A stretch of DNA of 64,000 nt from assembly GCF_900403705.1 (NCBI RefSeq), contig NZ_OUNR01000001.1, positions 806,001 to 870,000 of the forward strand, written 5' to 3'. How positions within the stretch are numbered: the first letter of the stretch is position 1; every line of letters starts with the position of its first letter. Shown here piece after piece: positions 10,976 through 18,912 of this stretch. The notes under the pieces are model-generated. The model made no database searches. It was not told the DNA's origin and was given only the letters and a program-made list of their open reading frames with translations. The translations under genes and the position numbers were made by a program. The stretch comes from Nitrospira lenta (GTDB taxonomy: Bacteria > Nitrospirota > Nitrospiria > Nitrospirales > Nitrospiraceae).

Positions 10976-11076
10976 GGGATCATAGCGAGAGCGATCTAGA
11001 GATGCCAGTTGAAAAGATCACCGTGCAACTCCAGCTTGCTCGACATGGCAGACTCGCTCGTAAGAAGCCGTCCCTG

Positions 11077-11105
11077 TTGATTTTCCGATCCCAGATGTCT
11101 AGAAT
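11077..11105 (+). promoter_or_regulatory. Predicted sigma-70 promoter of luxR
   Basis: TTGATT (11077-11082), a 17-base spacer, then TAGAAT (11100-11105): 5/6 and 5/6 matches to the -35 and -10 consensus with ideal spacing. Transcription would begin near 11112, downstream of an in-frame ATG at 11002 and upstream of the ATG at 11158. That argues for 11158 as the true luxR start. Confidence 0.6.
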
Positions 11106-11157
11106 TCCCTCACTATTTAACTATTTTAGAGTCATTACCGATGCGTGCCAGGAACCG

Positions 11158-12099
11158 ATGATGCGTTCGATTCAGAAACAGCATCAGGAAATCTCACCAG
11201 AATCTTTATGTGGGGAGTTTCCTTTTATCCGATATGGGGCATGCGAGAACAGCGCTTCCTCAGAAAATGAGTTGACCGCCTTCCCCCAAGTCAGAGCCAC
11301 GGGTCAGCATCAGTCTGTAAACTCGCCCCGTCGATTTCCGTCGGAAGTATTTCAAGATCTTAGCCGAAAAGAAATCCAACGCGTCCTTGAGATTCTGCAT
11401 TACTCTGTCGCTGCAACCACGGGCGACGATGTTCTCCATGTCCTTCAGCTTCTTAAGGAGACTGTCGCCTGTCCCAATGTCATTGGAGGAGTGGTCGAAC
11501 TGACATCAGCGGGAATTTTTAAAGAATTTAATAGCGTGATCAATGTCAGTTACTCCAGCAACTGGCTCTATACCTACGGCAAGAACGGATATGCTGAGGT
11601 CGATCCGGTCCTTCAATCAGCAGTTTCTTCATTCCAGACACAGGTCTGGGAACAGACCTACGAGGGGGCTCGCTCGCCAAAACAATTAGAGTTTATAGAA
11701 GAAGCGCGCTCCTTTGGCCTCACTCATGGAATTACTACCGGAATGGTAGAGCGGACCAAAAACTTCGCAACCTTCTTCTCATTTGCGGGAGGAGATCGAA
11801 AATCTACCACCCGCTACAAAGATCTCCTCCAATATCTTCTTCCATATCTTCACCACGTCTTGATTGCCAACACATCTACCCCTTTGTCGAATCGTGTGAA
11901 AGGGCTTTCTCCTCGCGAAGCTGCGGTATTAGTGTGGATGAAACAAGGCAAAACCAACTGGGAAATCTCGAAAATTTTAGGCGTCAGCGAACGCACCATC
12001 CGCTTTCATGTGGAAGGCATCTTCTCTAAACTTGACGTAAGTTCACGAACTCAAGCCGTGGCCTACGCCATGGAACATGGGTTAGTCAAAGAAGAGTAA
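11158..12099 (+). CDS. LuxR-type quorum-sensing transcription factor
   Basis: Regulator that binds an acyl-homoserine lactone (AHL) and DNA. Of 313 residues, about 85-245 are the autoinducer-binding domain: NWLYTYGKNGYAEVDPV keeps the W-x3-Y and D-P residues that line the AHL pocket, and VWEQTY keeps the next Trp. Residues about 250-313 are a LuxR helix-turn-helix (LSPREAAVLVWMKQGK ... SERTIRFHVEGIFSKL). The ATG at 11158 has AGGAA five bases upstream and follows the predicted promoter; the frame is open back to 11002. Even so, it carries about 70 N-terminal residues more than a typical 240-residue LuxR. It converges with the luxI-type gene. Base composition is visibly more AT-rich than in flanking genes. 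Confidence 0.9.
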   Translation: MMRSIQKQHQEISPESLCGEFPFIRYGACENSASSENELTAFPQVRATGQHQSVNSPRRFPSEVFQDLSRKEIQRVLEILHYSVAATTGDDVLHVLQLLKETVACPNVIGGVVELTSAGIFKEFNSVINVSYSSNWLYTYGKNGYAEVDPVLQSAVSSFQTQVWEQTYEGARSPKQLEFIEEARSFGLTHGITTGMVERTKNFATFFSFAGGDRKSTTRYKDLLQYLLPYLHHVLIANTSTPLSNRVKGLSPREAAVLVWMKQGKTNWEISKILGVSERTIRFHVEGIFSKLDVSSRTQAVAYAMEHGLVKEE

Positions 12100-12128
12100 C
12101 CTACCAGCCTTTCTTCTTTCTACAGCCC

Positions 12129-12896
12129 TCAGGCAGCCACAAGTTTTCGATTCGCCTCTAGGCGGATCGGTTGACGTTCCTGCATTCCATCTCTTGAAAC
12201 TCGCACTTTTGGATCCAATGCCAAAAATGAACTTTTCTCAAATGTCGTCTGCCCCATTGCCATATTAATCCAACGGAAAAACTCAGGCTGCTTTTGCGGG
12301 CAAGTTTCTTCGAACCTGTTCCAATCAAGAACGGCCGCAATTGAAAGAGCTTCTGCCGGAGGAAGCGAGACTGCTGGGCTGATGGGATCACACGTAAATC
12401 CCATGCCGCGAAGGACACGCAAGAATCGCTTCTCAACCACCATGTATAGAAATCTAGCCTCGTTTTGAAGACACCACTGATATACACCCTTATACAAAAC
12501 CTGCATGTATCGAATAGATAATCCCTTATCCATTAGACTCGGGTCTAAGGCCAGTCGAGTAATCTCCACCGTATCAGCCTCTTTACGAATTTCGCACCCA
12601 GGAAGCAGACAAGGCCTGAATTCGTGTTCCAGCATAAAGGGATGAGCCGCACTCACCATTCGAAACACCCCGCGCAAGCATTGCTCTTCATCGAACAGCC
12701 CAACTGTTGAAGAGTACGGGTCGTATGAATCCACTTCCAATCTGTCACTGCTTTCAGGAACCCACTTCAACCGCTCAGCAAACACGCGATGGCGTAGCCG
12801 GTAGGATTCTCGGAGTTCCTCATCACTGGTAAGGGTCTTAACAAGTAATCCGCCATCGGAAAATTCTATCGCGCGAACCTCTTCCAGTACTTGCAT
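12129..12896 (-). CDS. LuxI-type acyl-homoserine-lactone synthase
   Basis: Makes an AHL signal from S-adenosylmethionine and an acyl carrier. The 255-residue product has the LuxI invariants: RLRHRVFAERLKWV (Arg, Phe, Trp), EVDSYD (two Asp), the Arg in LRGVFRMV, and EITRLALD (Glu and Arg). It is about 50 residues longer than most LuxI proteins, with a C-terminal basic tail. The related PEP-CTERM/exosortase acyltransferase group is the alternative, but the adjacent luxR and lux box favour AHL synthesis. GAGGAGG lies four bases before the ATG, confirming the start. The acyl chain cannot be predicted. Confidence 0.87.
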   Translation of the reverse strand: MQVLEEVRAIEFSDGGLLVKTLTSDEELRESYRLRHRVFAERLKWVPESSDRLEVDSYDPYSSTVGLFDEEQCLRGVFRMVSAAHPFMLEHEFRPCLLPGCEIRKEADTVEITRLALDPSLMDKGLSIRYMQVLYKGVYQWCLQNEARFLYMVVEKRFLRVLRGMGFTCDPISPAVSLPPAEALSIAAVLDWNRFEETCPQKQPEFFRWINMAMGQTTFEKSSFLALDPKVRVSRDGMQERQPIRLEANRKLVAA

Positions 12897-12958
12897 AAAT
12901 CCTCCTCGAATAGAGTGTGGGGAAATTCAATGCAAGCATTTGCGCTCTTCTCCTGATG

Positions 12959-12990
12959 TCCGTCACCTGGCGGATCCGCCAGGTGACGGA
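12959..12990. promoter_or_regulatory. Perfect 32-bp palindrome containing a lux box (12965-12984)
   Basis: TCCGTC + ACCTGGCGGATCCGCCAGGT + GACGGA is a perfect palindrome of 32 bases. The inner 20 bases match the Vibrio fischeri lux box layout ACCTG-N3-GATC-N3-CAGGT as I recall it. It lies 68 bases before luxI (minus strand) and 112 before the histidine-kinase gene (plus strand). On the plus side TATTAC (13007-13012) starts 22 bases past the box, close to the class II activator arrangement. On the minus side no clean -10 is seen at that distance. No T-run follows either arm, so it is not a terminator. Confidence 0.85.
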
Positions 12991-13096
12991 AGGGCTTGTC
13001 CTCACGTATTACTCTCCACCTAGGTGCGAAATTGTAACGAAGAAAACGCTGACTCCGTGTATGCGCGAAAATTAGGAAGAGAGGAGGACTGACACT

Positions 13097-13915
13097 GTGA
13101 GTGAAAACACACGACTCCATCTCATTGATGGGTTTCGGCAATCCCCACCCCTAGGGCATCGCCATTCATTTGGACAGGGGGAGGGCTCTCGGCCCAAAAA
13201 CGAGAGCGATCGCTTCTCCAAACCCACTGCACCGGCCGGAGGCCAGCTGACGGTCGCGCTCAAAACCACAGAAAAGCGCTTGAGTAGTTTGCTGGAAGAT
13301 CGAGCGCGCATCAGCCGGGACCTCCACGACTCCGTCCTGCAATCGCTGTATGCCATCGGCCTCAGCTTGGAGACCTCTCACCGCACCGACGCCTCGCCAC
13401 GGCCCAGCGGCGATCGCCCATACCGTCATGCCGTGGATCAGCTCAATCGCTTGATTCACGAAGTCCGAGGCCTCATCAAAGGGCTTGCCGACGGATCGGT
13501 CCAGGACATGAACTTGTCCGAGGAGCTCAAGCAATTGGCCAGCAGTTACGAGCAGCTGAGTCCCGTTAGGATTACGCTCAGCCTGCAGCCGTCGGCGCTG
13601 GACATTCTCACCCGTGAGGAAGAGCAAGAGATCCTGAACATTGTGCGAGAGGCCTTGAGTAATTGCATCCGCCATGCGCAGGCGGCTCATGCCGAAGTAG
13701 CGATCAAGACGCACGGCAATCGAGTCCGTATCTGCATCTGCGATGACGGCAAGGGATTTATCGAAACTGGGGGGCACCCCAAAGGGTACGGCTTGATGAA
13801 TATGGAAGCACGGGCCAAGAAACTCGGCGGCAGCCTGCTGCTTCGCTCGAAGCCCGGCCATGGCACTCGCTTGACCGCGGAATTTTTACTAGAGCCGATA
13901 TTGGCGCCCGTATGA
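13097..13915 (+). CDS. Soluble sensor histidine kinase, NarL-type (HisKA_3)
   Basis: A 272-residue cytoplasmic kinase with no transmembrane or recognisable sensor domain. The DHp helix with the phospho-accepting His is ARISRDLHDSVLQSLYAIGL (about residues 73-92). The ATPase part has the N box EALSNCIRHA, DDGKGF and GYGLMNMEARA. It begins with GTG, preceded by GAGGAGG about nine bases upstream. The first 60 residues are polar and unordered-looking. It overlaps the response-regulator gene by ATGA, so the two are a translationally coupled pair. The lux box and TATTAC element upstream suggest quorum-sensing control of the operon. What it senses is unknown. Confidence 0.87.
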   Translation: MSENTRLHLIDGFRQSPPLGHRHSFGQGEGSRPKNESDRFSKPTAPAGGQLTVALKTTEKRLSSLLEDRARISRDLHDSVLQSLYAIGLSLETSHRTDASPRPSGDRPYRHAVDQLNRLIHEVRGLIKGLADGSVQDMNLSEELKQLASSYEQLSPVRITLSLQPSALDILTREEEQEILNIVREALSNCIRHAQAAHAEVAIKTHGNRVRICICDDGKGFIETGGHPKGYGLMNMEARAKKLGGSLLLRSKPGHGTRLTAEFLLEPILAPV

Positions 13916-14586
13916 AACCCGCACGCACGACACTCCTTATCGTCGATGACCACGAAGTCGTACGACAGGGGCTCCGAACACTCCTTGACCTTGAGCCGGA
14001 TCTCCGCGTCATCGGGGAAGCGGCCTCGGCCGAGGATGCCGTCACGCAGACGAAATCCCTCCGGCCGCATGTCGTGCTGCTTGACGTCAAACTCCACGGC
14101 GGATCCGGAATCGCCGCCTGCCGCCAGATCCTCGCGACGATGCCGGCCACCCGCATCCTGATGTTGACCAGCTTTTCGGACGACGCCATCGTGGTCGACG
14201 CCGTTCAAGGCGGAGCCCACGGCTACGCGCTCAAGGATGTCCGCACGCAGGACCTGATTCATGCGATTCGCACCGTCGCCAGCGGCCACGGCTATCTAGA
14301 CCCGCGCGTCGCCCAGCAGACCCTGCATTGGATCCGCGATCGATCCCACGCAGCGCCCGGTCACGCTACGGATCGTCTCACGAACCTCTCCCCGCAAGAG
14401 CGCGCCATTCTGCCCTTGCTCGCCGAAGGCAAGACCAACAAAGAAATTGCCATCGACCTCCACTTGAGCGACAAGACGGTCAAGAACTACCTTGCCAATA
14501 TCTTCGACAAACTCCAAGTACGCCGGCGCACCGAAGCCGTGAGCTGGTATATCCGAACAACTCGGGCCTCCTCGCAACACTCCTGA
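13912..14586 (+). CDS. NarL/FixJ-family response regulator
   Basis: A 224-residue transcription factor: receiver domain at about 1-120 (LIVDDHEVVRQG with the acidic pair, VVLLDVKLHG with the phospho-accepting Asp, LKD with the conserved Lys) and a LuxR-type helix-turn-helix at about 155-215 (LSPQERAILPLLAEGKTNKEIA ... DKTVKNYLANIF). It should be phosphorylated by the kinase encoded immediately upstream, with which it overlaps by four bases. It is a close paralogue of the regulator at 18220, sharing most of the receiver and the HTH. DNA targets are unknown. Confidence 0.93.
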   Translation: MKPARTTLLIVDDHEVVRQGLRTLLDLEPDLRVIGEAASAEDAVTQTKSLRPHVVLLDVKLHGGSGIAACRQILATMPATRILMLTSFSDDAIVVDAVQGGAHGYALKDVRTQDLIHAIRTVASGHGYLDPRVAQQTLHWIRDRSHAAPGHATDRLTNLSPQERAILPLLAEGKTNKEIAIDLHLSDKTVKNYLANIFDKLQVRRRTEAVSWYIRTTRASSQHS

Positions 14587-14759: not shown

Positions 14760-17700
14760 ATGCACCGTTTCCGCTCTTCCTCGCCGACCGAGGCCACAAC
14801 CCAAGCCAGCAACGGCATCCCGCCGGAACAGTCCGCGCTGCAGGCTTCTTCCCCTACTCATCATGCCGTAGAAGCAACGCCTATCGGCGCCTGGGAATGG
14901 CGGTTCGCCAGCGGACGGATCGAGTGGTCCCCGCAAGCCGATACCGTTTTCGGGCTCGCACCTGGCAATTCTCCCCGCACATTCGAAGGATTCTTGAACC
15001 TCGTGCATGAGTCAGATCGGCCGCAGTTCCAAGCGGCGATTCAGACAACGCTCGAAACCCGTCAGCCCTATCAGCTCGATCACCGCATCATCACCCCGAG
15101 CGGAACCGTCCGATGGGTTGCCTGTCGAGGTCGCGCGGCTCTGGATACAGACGGTCGCGTCACAGGCATGGCGGGAACGACCGAAGATATTACCCGTCGG
15201 AAAGAAACCGAGCTGGCCCTTTTCGATCTGCAAGGGACCCTGGAGCAGCGAGTGCGAGAGCGTACCGCCGGACTCGAACAAACCGTGCGGAACCTTCAAG
15301 AGGAAATTGAGCAGCGGCAGCAAACGGAAGACGCTCTGAAGGCCAGCGAGCAACGGTATCACGCTCTCTACGAACACAACCCTACGATGTACTTCACCCT
15401 GACGCCTGACGGCACCGTCCTCTCCGTCAACCGGTTCGGGGCGGAAGAATTGGGATACCGTGCGGACGAACTGGCCGGGCAATCGGTCCTCACCGTCTTC
15501 CTAGCCGCCGATCACCACACCGTGTTGGAACAACTGCGCCTCTGCTCACAGAGCCCGGGACGAACGTTCAACTGGGAAATTCAGAAAGTACGGAAGGATG
15601 GACAGCGCCTCTGGGTCAAGGAACGGGCGCGGGCCATCACCGGGCCGGATGGAATTCCGATCATTCTCATCGTGTGTGAAGACATTACGGAACAACGGCA
15701 GACGCAAGCGCTGATCCAGGATCGGGAACAGCTACTACACAACACCACGCAGTTTCTCCATACCCTGGTGCGGGAGTCTCCTCTTCCGATTATCAGTCTA
15801 AGCGCCGACGCGCTGGTCACCAGTTGGAACCAGGCCGCCGTAAGACTTTTCGGCTGGACCGAAGAGGAAGTCCTCGGCCAGGAACTCCCCTATGTGCCAG
15901 CCGGCCAAGAGACGGAGGCCGATGCCCTCTGGGGCGAGGGCACCCGCCGCGCGATTTGTGGACCAATCCCCTTGCGCCGGCAACGGAAAGACGGAACGCT
16001 CCTCGATCTGCTGTTATGGCCGGTGTTCGTGAACGATGCCAACGGGCAGCTGGAAACCGCGGTCGGCCTCTACGTCGATCAATCGGAACTCCGCCGGGCA
16101 GAGGATGCCCGCCTGCACAGCGAAGAACGCCTCCGATCGTTCTTAAATGCCCTCGACGACCTCGCCGTTGAGCTCGACGAGACAGGCACCTACGTGAACG
16201 CCTGGACCAGGAACGAAAACAGTCTGCTGGTGCCGAAGCAAGCGCTTCTTGGAAAGACACTTTTGGATCTCCACGGAGAAGAAGCCGGAGCACGCTACGT
16301 AGAAATTGTGAACCGTGTCCTCCAATCGGGGCAACCGGACACCATCGAATATTCACTGGCGATGCATGGGCAGCTTCGGCACTTTTCCGCCATCCTCAGC
16401 CGTATTCCGGCGAGTGCGAGCACCCCATCGACCGTCGCCTGTGTCGTCCGCGACATGACGGAGCAAAAACGCTCGGCGGAAGCACTGCACCTGAGCGAGC
16501 TCCATTTAAAAAGCATCATCGAGACGTCGCCGGAATGTTTCAAACTGGTGGCCGCTGACGGGACACTGCTCCAGATAAACGCGACCGGGCTGGCCATGAT
16601 CGAGGCCGACGACATACGAAACGTACTCGGCCAATGCATCTATCCGATTGTCGCCGAACCTCATCGCGAGGCCTTTCGGGCCATGAATGAACGGGTCTGC
16701 CGGGGGCAAAGAGAATCGCTTGAATACGAGGTCGTGGGCTTGCAAGGGACTCGCCGCTGGGTGGAAACCCATGCCGTGCCGTTGCGCAATCCCGCCGATG
16801 GCGCCATGGTTCAGCTCGCCATCACGCGCGACGTCACCGACCGCAAACAAGCCGAACTGGCGCTTCGCCTGAGCGAAGAGCGCTTCGAAATTGCCTTTCG
16901 GTCAAGCCCCCATCCAGTCATAATTACCGAATTGGAGACGGGCCGCTGCATCGAGGTCAACGACACGGCCCTGCACCTCTTTGGGTTTCAACGCCACGAA
17001 GCAGTCGGGCACACGACCATCGCCATTGAGCTGTGGCCGAAGCCGGACGACCGGGTGCGATTTGTGACGCAACTTCTGGCGCAGGGCACCCTCCGAGGCG
17101 TGGAGTTCACGCTCCAAACCAAGGACCGCCGCTTGCGGCACTGTCTGGTCTCAAGCCAATTGATCGAACTCAACGGGACGCGGTGCATCCTCACGGTGGG
17201 CACGGATGTCACGGAAAAGAAAGAAGCGGAAGCCGCGCTGCTGGAAAGCGAAGAGCGCTGGCAGCGGTTCGTCGCCGATGCGCCGGTGGGGCTGGTCGTC
17301 GTCGATGCCGACAAACACATCCTGAGCGCCAACAAAGCCTTCTGTACGCTCACGGGCTATTCCGAGCAGGAAGTGATTAATAACACCTACGCGCCGTACA
17401 CCCATCCCGACGACCTGCCTAAAAATCTACAATTGACCGATGAACTGTTTGCAGGGCAACGGGACGCCTATCTTTACGAGAAACGGTACATCCGGAAAAA
17501 CGGCGAAATTATCTGGGTCTCCGTCCGCGCGAGTCATCTCTCCGCTCATAGGAACGATACGCCGCTGGTGCTCGCCGTCGTGGAAGACATTACCGACCGC
17601 AAGCAAGCCCTGGCGGAGCGAGAACGAATCAGCCAGGATCTGCACGACAATATTCTTCAATCCCTCTACGCCATCGGCATGCAGCTCGAAGCGGGAAAGT

Positions 17701-18230
17701 TTCTGGTGGGAACCGCCCCGCGCAAATCCAAGCGGCATGTCACTCAAGCCATCCGGCAATTGAACCATCTTGTGCTGGAGGTCCGGCAATTCATCACGGA
17801 TCTGACCCGCCGCACGGCGCCGACATTGGACTTCAGTGTGGCGCTGAAGCAACTCGTCGCCTCCTGCTCATCGAACAATCATCCCATGCCGACATTGGAC
17901 ATCGATCCGGCCGCACTCATGGCCGTCACCCCGGCGATCGGCGAGCAATTGATGAACATTGCGCGAGAAGCCTTGAGCAACAGCGTCCGCCATACCGGTG
18001 CAACCCGCCGTTCCGTCAGCCTCATGACAACCGACCGAGCCATCCGGCTGCGCGTGACCGATGACGGCAGCGGCTTTGACCCCGGCCGCACCAGGCGCCG
18101 CGGTCACGGACTGGCCAATATGGCGGCACGAGCCAAAACCATCGGCGCGCAATTCACGCTCGACAGTGCGCCGGACCACGGCACCTCGATCACGATCGAC
18201 GTGCCCACAGGAGATCCGTATGCCTGCTAA
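14760..18230 (+). CDS. Multi-PAS sensor histidine kinase, NarL-type
   Basis: A 1156-residue kinase without membrane helices. I count seven PAS domains: the first at about 35-140 (GAWEWRFASGRIEWS), then a coiled-coil signalling helix (about 150-200), then PAS units starting near 200, 330, 455, 580, 700 and 830. The output end is HisKA_3 (ERISQDLHDNILQSLYAIGM, His near 965) and an ATPase (EALSNSVRHT, DDGSGFD, GHGLANMAARA). The DHp region is strikingly like that of the kinase at 13097. The stop codon overlaps the next regulator's start by 11 bases, so they form a pair. The PAS ligands (haem, flavin or none) cannot be read. Confidence 0.92.
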   Translation: MHRFRSSSPTEATTQASNGIPPEQSALQASSPTHHAVEATPIGAWEWRFASGRIEWSPQADTVFGLAPGNSPRTFEGFLNLVHESDRPQFQAAIQTTLETRQPYQLDHRIITPSGTVRWVACRGRAALDTDGRVTGMAGTTEDITRRKETELALFDLQGTLEQRVRERTAGLEQTVRNLQEEIEQRQQTEDALKASEQRYHALYEHNPTMYFTLTPDGTVLSVNRFGAEELGYRADELAGQSVLTVFLAADHHTVLEQLRLCSQSPGRTFNWEIQKVRKDGQRLWVKERARAITGPDGIPIILIVCEDITEQRQTQALIQDREQLLHNTTQFLHTLVRESPLPIISLSADALVTSWNQAAVRLFGWTEEEVLGQELPYVPAGQETEADALWGEGTRRAICGPIPLRRQRKDGTLLDLLLWPVFVNDANGQLETAVGLYVDQSELRRAEDARLHSEERLRSFLNALDDLAVELDETGTYVNAWTRNENSLLVPKQALLGKTLLDLHGEEAGARYVEIVNRVLQSGQPDTIEYSLAMHGQLRHFSAILSRIPASASTPSTVACVVRDMTEQKRSAEALHLSELHLKSIIETSPECFKLVAADGTLLQINATGLAMIEADDIRNVLGQCIYPIVAEPHREAFRAMNERVCRGQRESLEYEVVGLQGTRRWVETHAVPLRNPADGAMVQLAITRDVTDRKQAELALRLSEERFEIAFRSSPHPVIITELETGRCIEVNDTALHLFGFQRHEAVGHTTIAIELWPKPDDRVRFVTQLLAQGTLRGVEFTLQTKDRRLRHCLVSSQLIELNGTRCILTVGTDVTEKKEAEAALLESEERWQRFVADAPVGLVVVDADKHILSANKAFCTLTGYSEQEVINNTYAPYTHPDDLPKNLQLTDELFAGQRDAYLYEKRYIRKNGEIIWVSVRASHLSAHRNDTPLVLAVVEDITDRKQALAERERISQDLHDNILQSLYAIGMQLEAGKFLVGTAPRKSKRHVTQAIRQLNHLVLEVRQFITDLTRRTAPTLDFSVALKQLVASCSSNNHPMPTLDIDPAALMAVTPAIGEQLMNIAREALSNSVRHTGATRRSVSLMTTDRAIRLRVTDDGSGFDPGRTRRRGHGLANMAARAKTIGAQFTLDSAPDHGTSITIDVPTGDPYAC

Positions 18231-18912
18231 GACAAAATCCTCCGTCATTCGGTTGCTGATCGTCGACGACCATGAGGTCGTTCGAATCGGGCTCGGTGCG
18301 GTGCTCGATCTGACACCGGGAATGAAAGTCGTCGGCCAAGCCCGGAGTAAGGCCGATGCCATCACGCAATGCCGTCGCACAAAAGCGGACGTCGTGTTGC
18401 TCGACATCCGTCTGCCGGACGGCAGCGGAATCGATGCCGCCCGCGAGATTCTGTCGGTGCACCCGAACATCCGCATCCTGTTTCTGACCAGCTTCGCCGA
18501 CGAACACACGGTGCTTGAAGCGATCCTGTCCGGCGCCCAAGGCTATGTGCTGAAAGACATCGGCTCCGCTGCGCTGATCCGCGCCATCAAAACCGTCGCC
18601 GCCGGACACCCCTTGATCGACCCGCGCCTAGCCACGCACACGCTCTCATGGATGAAGCACCTGCCGGACGGCCAGCCCCTCGCCAAACGCTCCCTCCTCT
18701 CGCCTCAAGAGCAGCGGATCCTGCCGCATGTCGCCGGAGGCCTGACCAACAAAGAGATCGCGCAACGCCTGAATCTGAGCGAGAAGACCGTGAAGAATTA
18801 TTTAGCCAACATCTACTCCAAACTCCAGATCGGACGGCGCTCCCAGGTCGCCGCCATGTACGCCGGAAGCTTCAAGGGTTCCGCGCCGCCACTCGCCTCC
18901 AAATCCTCCTAG
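18220..18912 (+). CDS. NarL/FixJ-family response regulator
   Basis: A 230-residue receiver plus LuxR-type helix-turn-helix. The start ATG at 18220 (MPAKTKSSVIRLLIVDDH) is inside the end of the kinase gene and has AGGAGA five bases upstream; the frame is open further back, but only within kinase coding sequence. Receiver landmarks: LLIVDDHEVVRIG, VVLLDIRLPDGSG (phospho-accepting Asp), VLKDIG (Lys). The HTH is LSPQEQRILPHVAGGLTNKEIA ... EKTVKNYLANIYSKL. It pairs with the multi-PAS kinase upstream and is a paralogue of the regulator at 13912. Confidence 0.93.
   Translation: MPAKTKSSVIRLLIVDDHEVVRIGLGAVLDLTPGMKVVGQARSKADAITQCRRTKADVVLLDIRLPDGSGIDAAREILSVHPNIRILFLTSFADEHTVLEAILSGAQGYVLKDIGSAALIRAIKTVAAGHPLIDPRLATHTLSWMKHLPDGQPLAKRSLLSPQEQRILPHVAGGLTNKEIAQRLNLSEKTVKNYLANIYSKLQIGRRSQVAAMYAGSFKGSAPPLASKSS

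Follow-up and report, generated by a model that had tools for sequence, protein, structure and literature searches.

A palindromic lux box between luxI and a sensor-less histidine kinase operon of Nitrospira lenta as a probable bidirectional quorum-sensing operator

The palindrome that separates luxI from a divergent two-component operon in Nitrospira lenta is very probably a bidirectional operator, at which AHL-bound LuxR activates both luxI and the kinase and regulator genes. AHL made by LuxI would accumulate, LuxR would bind the box within the palindrome and RNA polymerase would be recruited in both directions. In the luxI direction this would give positive feedback. In the kinase direction LuxR would be a class II activator: the box would stand in for the -35, the -10 would be the hexamer TATTAC or lie close to it, and the signal would raise the amount of a kinase without sensor domain together with its partner regulator. 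Crowding is thereby probably relayed into a second signalling system. The gene identities, the box, its conservation and position and its persistence in the absence of luxI were observed here, while activation in two directions has been published for a relative. Nitrospira are major nitrite oxidisers and include complete ammonia oxidisers.

The window, i.e. the whole stretch of DNA analysed, is 64,000 nt of N. lenta (NZ_OUNR01000001.1, positions 806,001-870,000) from a genome of 3.76 Mb (code G000). The gene order is a FadL-type membrane protein gene (-), luxR (+), luxI (-), kinase (+), response regulator (+), a PAS-rich kinase (+) and a second regulator (+), preceded by a first gene that we take to be uvrC. 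Start to start, luxI and the kinase are separated by 200 bp (12897-13096), and the start of the regulator overlaps the kinase stop by 4 bases. The palindrome was also considered as a terminator and rejected, as it lies between divergent gene starts and a terminator scan found no such site.

Table 1. Features of the luxR-luxI-kinase locus, in window coordinates.
Feature	Position	Strand	Basis
luxR	11002-12099	+	Autoind_bind + GerE (Pfam)
luxI, AHL synthase	12129-12896	-	Autoind_synth, E 1.7e-16
GCAAAT, best luxI-side -10-like hexamer, weak	12938-12943	-	at +22, 3/6 to TATAAT
Perfect 32-bp palindrome, two 16-nt arms, holds the lux box	12959-12990		sequence
lux box ACCTGGCGGATCCGCCAGGT, 20 bp, CTG-N10-CAG	12965-12984		only full match in genome
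Conserved block downstream of box, covers the -10	12995-13023	+	alignment of window and three near relatives
TATTAC, proposed kinase -10	13007-13012	+	begins +23 after box, 4/6 to TATAAT
AGGAGG, kinase ribosome-binding site	13082-13087	+	read from sequence
Soluble histidine kinase, no recognisable sensor domain	13097-13915	+	HisKA_3, HATPase_c; no other Pfam match
NarL-type response regulator	13912-14586	+	Response_reg (REC) + GerE

Loci for comparison comprised every luxI match of the genus except one remnant, which gave 64 loci in 62 of 79 genomes, the window included. Eight LuxI residues that we take to be the conserved ones of the family were checked; the window has all of them, and each occurs in 63-64 of the 64 loci. 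The LuxR residues W, Y, D, P, W and G, presumably the LuxR/TraR ligand contacts, are present in 62-64 of the 64, and LuxR is the sole Autoind_bind match in the whole window genome. Judged from sequence, the two proteins would qualify as an AHL quorum-sensing pair, with a synthase that carries the catalytic residues and a receptor that has AHL-binding and GerE domains. The best solved-structure match to the window LuxR is a CviR-type LuxR (Chromobacterium), from which it differs in genomic context and targets.

The kinase had been described as lacking a sensor domain, and this holds for the family: no sensor domain was recognised by Pfam in any of 59 aligned members (the frameshifted kinase of L047 being left out of the alignment and of the set), and no GGDEF or EAL domain was found by Pfam in these 59 proteins, all of which have HisKA_3 and HATPase_c. 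In about the first 60 residues the sole conserved feature is a short motif around G12. H77, N189, D216, G218 and G220 are invariant in 59/59 members, and the short kinase is therefore probably active; we assume H77 to be the phosphoacceptor and the others to belong to the N, G1 and G2 motifs. The kinase presumably passes its phosphate to the regulator, which would act on downstream targets, and control by the amount of kinase, as the preliminary description suggested, may apply. The nearest solved structures are DesK catalytic cores. As in NarX/NarL- and DesK-like systems, a kinase with HisKA_3 and HATPase_c is paired with a REC-GerE regulator, but the N. lenta kinase has neither membrane nor sensor domain and its expression is apparently set by quorum sensing. 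A second kinase/regulator pair follows directly (14760-18912) and is conserved with the locus; its kinase (14760-18230) has about six or seven PAS domains. This pair could supply the sensor input that the short kinase is missing.

The arrangement of genes and box is stable across the genus. The short kinase is head-to-head with luxI in 58 of the 59 loci that have at least 1.5 kb beyond luxI, and the regulator comes right after the kinase in 56 of these 59. A box with at most two mismatches over 16 positions lies between luxI and the kinase in 60/60 luxI loci that have the kinase, and is exact in 53; all such box and kinase counts are inflated by shared ancestry. For L044 and L063, where the contig ends before the kinase, the last box was used as the kinase-side box, and L045 gave no spacer to test, since its contig stops 48 bp beyond luxI. 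Although the luxI-kinase intergenic length varies from 132 to 1015 bp among the 60 kinase-bearing loci, the box nearest to the kinase is as a rule not far from it (40-192 bp in all, with gene starts extrapolated from protein alignments in this and the following distances). Two or three boxes are present in 16 loci, where the distance to the kinase is 69-101 bp for the box on its side and the distance to luxI is 96-132 bp for the box on the other. Two further loci, L042 and L293, have a single box, which is near the kinase (87 and 102 bp) and far from luxI (262 and 265 bp). Among the reading frames between duplicated boxes in six loci none was judged worth following.

Some loci depart from this arrangement. 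In L287 (G103) luxI and luxR are kept, the kinase, the regulator and the box are all missing together, and luxI abuts the PAS-rich kinase gene. In part of the genus (L129, L133, L165, L166, L181 and L183) a second kinase-like gene and another regulator come after the short kinase, which is about 39% identical, with reading frames and domains of this variant as checked in L129. A contig scan for box-like stretches gave 93 matches, 80 of which were examined for context; those among the 80 without luxI or kinase, mostly outside Nitrospirota, were taken as chance matches.

The preliminary description had placed TATTAC 22 bases from the box on the kinase side, and its position is confirmed, 22 bases after the last box base, 12984. 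A match of at least 4/6 to TATAAT at one of three offsets has a chance of about 0.10 at the local base composition, and the hexamer alone is therefore not evidence. It also lacks the final T of the consensus -10, which counts against the kinase-promoter reading. A generic sigma-70 promoter scan of the window found no promoter on either strand; this was counted against the activation model, although the scan was also judged uninformative.

Alignment of the flanks on the box gave a clearer signal. On the kinase side (48 flanks, 42 non-redundant after 6 were removed) the mean match to TATAAT peaks at +22 with 2.69 of 6, as compared to a shuffled maximum of 1.96 (sd 0.08) and a highest value of 2.26 in 300 shuffles; T is found at +22 and A at +23, each in 30 of the 42 flanks. 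In the window and its three near luxI-positive relatives (uvrC 93-95% identical) only one long block is conserved in the stretch that separates the box from the ribosome-binding site, and it covers the hexamer, which is TAYTAC in all four: TATTAC in the window and TACTAC in the three relatives. The class II arrangement, CTG-N10-CAG with a -10 about 22 bases downstream, is thus found both in the window (+23, 4/6) and in the genus peak (+22). TATTAC predicts a transcription start of the kinase near 13019, some 44 bases away from the centre of the box; this start and activation in N. lenta itself are inferred. In class II LuxR-dependent promoters the start is about 42 bases from the box centre. 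The Vibrio fischeri luxI promoter is presumably alike, with CTG-N10-CAG, a -10 about 22 bases beyond and no separate -35. Its divergent units are luxR and the luxI operon, whereas in N. lenta luxR lies elsewhere and the second unit is the two-component pair.

That there is no good -10 at such a distance on the luxI side, as was also claimed, is true of the window, where no hexamer at +18 to +28 exceeds 3/6, but does not extend to the relatives. Their luxI-side flanks (48, 38 non-redundant after 10 were removed) show a -10-like excess at +14 (2.39) and at +22 (2.26) over a shuffle maximum of 2.05. A promoter on the luxI side is therefore not lacking in the genus as a whole, and this excess was likewise counted against the activation model.

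A Nitrospira lux box that works in both directions is already known. In the available text of PMC8553950 (2021), 61 Nitrospira upstream regions were tested in E. coli, and two overlapping regions that share one box, ACCTGGCGGTTCCGCCAGGT, were the only ones to respond without an added sigma factor. C8-HSL with NspR1 gave a 196.6-fold increase towards a gene called GGDEF/EAL and a 14-fold increase towards nspI; the activation needs NspR1, which in purified form binds a box of this type together with RNA polymerase. The same text describes AHL production and response in a related Nitrospira and predicts 219 regulated genes. The NspR1/NspI system and that of N. lenta belong to the same genus, have the same box core, ACCTGGCG-N4-CGCCAGGT, and have one box between luxI and a divergent gene; activation by AHL in both directions was shown for the former in E. 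coli and would hold for the latter. They differ in that the divergent gene, named as a hypothetical GGDEF/EAL protein in the published text, encodes the sensor-less kinase in N. lenta and in the relatives with that exact box.

Nine loci have the box ACCTGGCGGTTCCGCCAGGT; as L029, L064 and L212 are the same locus, seven are distinct. In each of the seven, the gene across the box from luxI either gives a tblastn match to the short kinase or shares its length and N-terminal motif. The gaps between box and genes given in PMC8553950, as far as its text is available, are 125 and 81 bp. Depending on the start codon, possible kinase starts in the seven loci are mostly 89-117 bp and luxI starts mostly 54-91 bp from the box (no luxI frame was found in L214), and the pair of 125 and 81 bp was reproduced as a pair in none of the ACCTGGCGGTTCCGCCAGGT loci, with no certain match. 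The published divergent gene is either labelled differently or truly different; its label and the unmatched gaps were weighed against the activation model. The available texts of PMC12342949 and PMC13049253 report the distribution of luxI and luxR and do not contain the term lux box, nor does that of PMC13049253 contain histidine kinase. Literature searches for Nitrospira with lux box, and for Nitrospira with AHL and histidine kinase, which covered titles, the beginnings of abstracts and few subscription papers, found no description of the kinase pair as a quorum-sensing target. Within the literature searched, the kinase-pair target, the near-single-site pattern and the variant without luxI appear to be new.

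No intact luxI match was found in 17 of the 79 genus genomes. Five of these (G021, G025, G029, G032 and G043) have a LuxR-like gene, a box with one or two mismatches and the kinase and regulator, in that order and on one strand; in G021 a luxI remnant with a stop is still visible. The kinase is the only gene downstream of the box in these genomes, and TATGAT or TATAAT occurs at +24 in 5/5, four of which are closely related, so that they are not five independent cases. In the LuxR-like proteins of G032 and G021 the HTH and the N-terminal segment are kept but the ligand-contact region is gone, and a domain scan of the two gave no Autoind_bind match. The proteins of the other three match that of G032 over the full length with 69-82% identity, which implies that they too are without the ligand core. 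V. fischeri LuxR reduced to a C-terminal fragment activates in the absence of inducer (Choi and Greenberg 1991, cited in the available text of PMC7585371), and by analogy the proteins with deleted ligand core may be constitutive. The luxI-less relatives form a natural comparison, in which the kinase output appears uncoupled from the signal.

Between uvrC and the LuxR with deleted ligand core, G032 has genes for an EpsA-like LuxR, a 474-aa protein, a FabF-like ketosynthase and a P450 (L115:2647-7631, with parts in L084 and L154), which may together form a small biosynthetic cluster that includes a LuxR-type regulator of its own.

Three other readings of the box were weighed. The response regulator of the kinase has, like LuxR, a GerE-type DNA-binding domain and co-occurs with the box in most loci; it might itself bind the box, alone or in competition with LuxR, and give autoregulation or feedback. 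We consider this improbable. In L159:3600-4340 (CP070743.1, Nitrospirota) luxI, luxR and the box are accompanied by a divergent gene for an unrelated PAS/GAF-like kinase of 859 aa, and some of the genus have a different regulator next to the kinase; the box thus follows LuxR. The binding of purified NspR1 with RNA polymerase, in the available text of PMC8553950, points the same way. Since the L159 kinase is unrelated, kinases may have come to lie next to luxI on more than one occasion.

It is also quite improbable that the box serves luxI only, the kinase being merely a conserved neighbour with a constitutive or separately regulated promoter of its own. Genes in head-to-head orientation often have a spacer in common by mere chance, and neither direction of the window shows a good sigma-70 promoter. 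Against this, the reporters of PMC8553950, as described in its available text, respond in both directions, one copy of each duplicated box remains near the kinase, in two loci the sole box lies near the kinase rather than luxI, and in the five luxI-less genomes the kinase is the only gene downstream of a retained box. The same observations, together with the conserved position of the box, support the claim of the preliminary description that AHL and LuxR switch on the kinase/regulator pair.

Some LuxR homologues, those of the EsaR type, are repressors. Repression of the kinase operon by LuxR, either as apo-receptor or through obstruction of polymerase, with AHL relieving or imposing it, is very improbable, given a -10 downstream of the box at activator spacing and the 196.6-fold, NspR1-dependent rise of the reporter with C8-HSL in the available text of PMC8553950.

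For the preferred reading, a bidirectional operator bound by LuxR, the number of boxes per genome bears on how far the signal reaches. The exact core CCTGGCG-N4-CGCCAGG is found in 61 of the 79 genomes, as against 2/79 for the reversed control. Among the matches listed there are at least 78 sites, of which 5 are outside the luxI/kinase locus, the last three genomes being placed by their luxI loci. The core is present in 61 of 67 genomes with the LuxR HTH and in 0 of 12 without it (Fisher p 3.6e-10, a value that overstates independence due to shared ancestry). The six HTH-positive genomes without the exact core comprise four with one or two mismatches in the box, one contig end and the deletion in G103. 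In three of the 12 box-less genomes (G002, G020 and G110) kinase or regulator homologues lie at contig ends; here the absence of the box may be an assembly gap, leaving a count of 0/9. In the window genome the locus is the only site with fewer than two mismatches, the next best being two sites with two. A larger regulon, suggested by the loose pattern ACCTGNCNGATCNGNCAGGT (41 sites, 13 in the reversed control), was rejected, as the stricter pattern ACCTGGCGNNNNCGCCAGGT with up to three mismatches gave only a small excess (30 sites, 25 in the reversed control); weaker sites may nonetheless be in use.

As the genome has hardly any other strong box, most further effects of quorum sensing would probably run via the kinase/regulator pair. 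A possible but somewhat doubtful extension is a one-site regulon, in which LuxR would act directly only at the box and all AHL output other than luxI itself would pass through the pair; in the luxI-less lineage a LuxR without ligand core would then make the kinase independent of the signal, with the switch hard-wired on. If the signal does run via one kinase/regulator pair, the question of what it controls narrows to which targets a single response regulator has.

Compared to the window, L060 (G053) and L065 (G051) are 94-95% identical in uvrC and 72-84% in the kinase, yet only 51-53% in luxI and 46% in luxR, as if the luxR-luxI cassette (11002-12896 in the window) had been replaced in place by a diverged allele.
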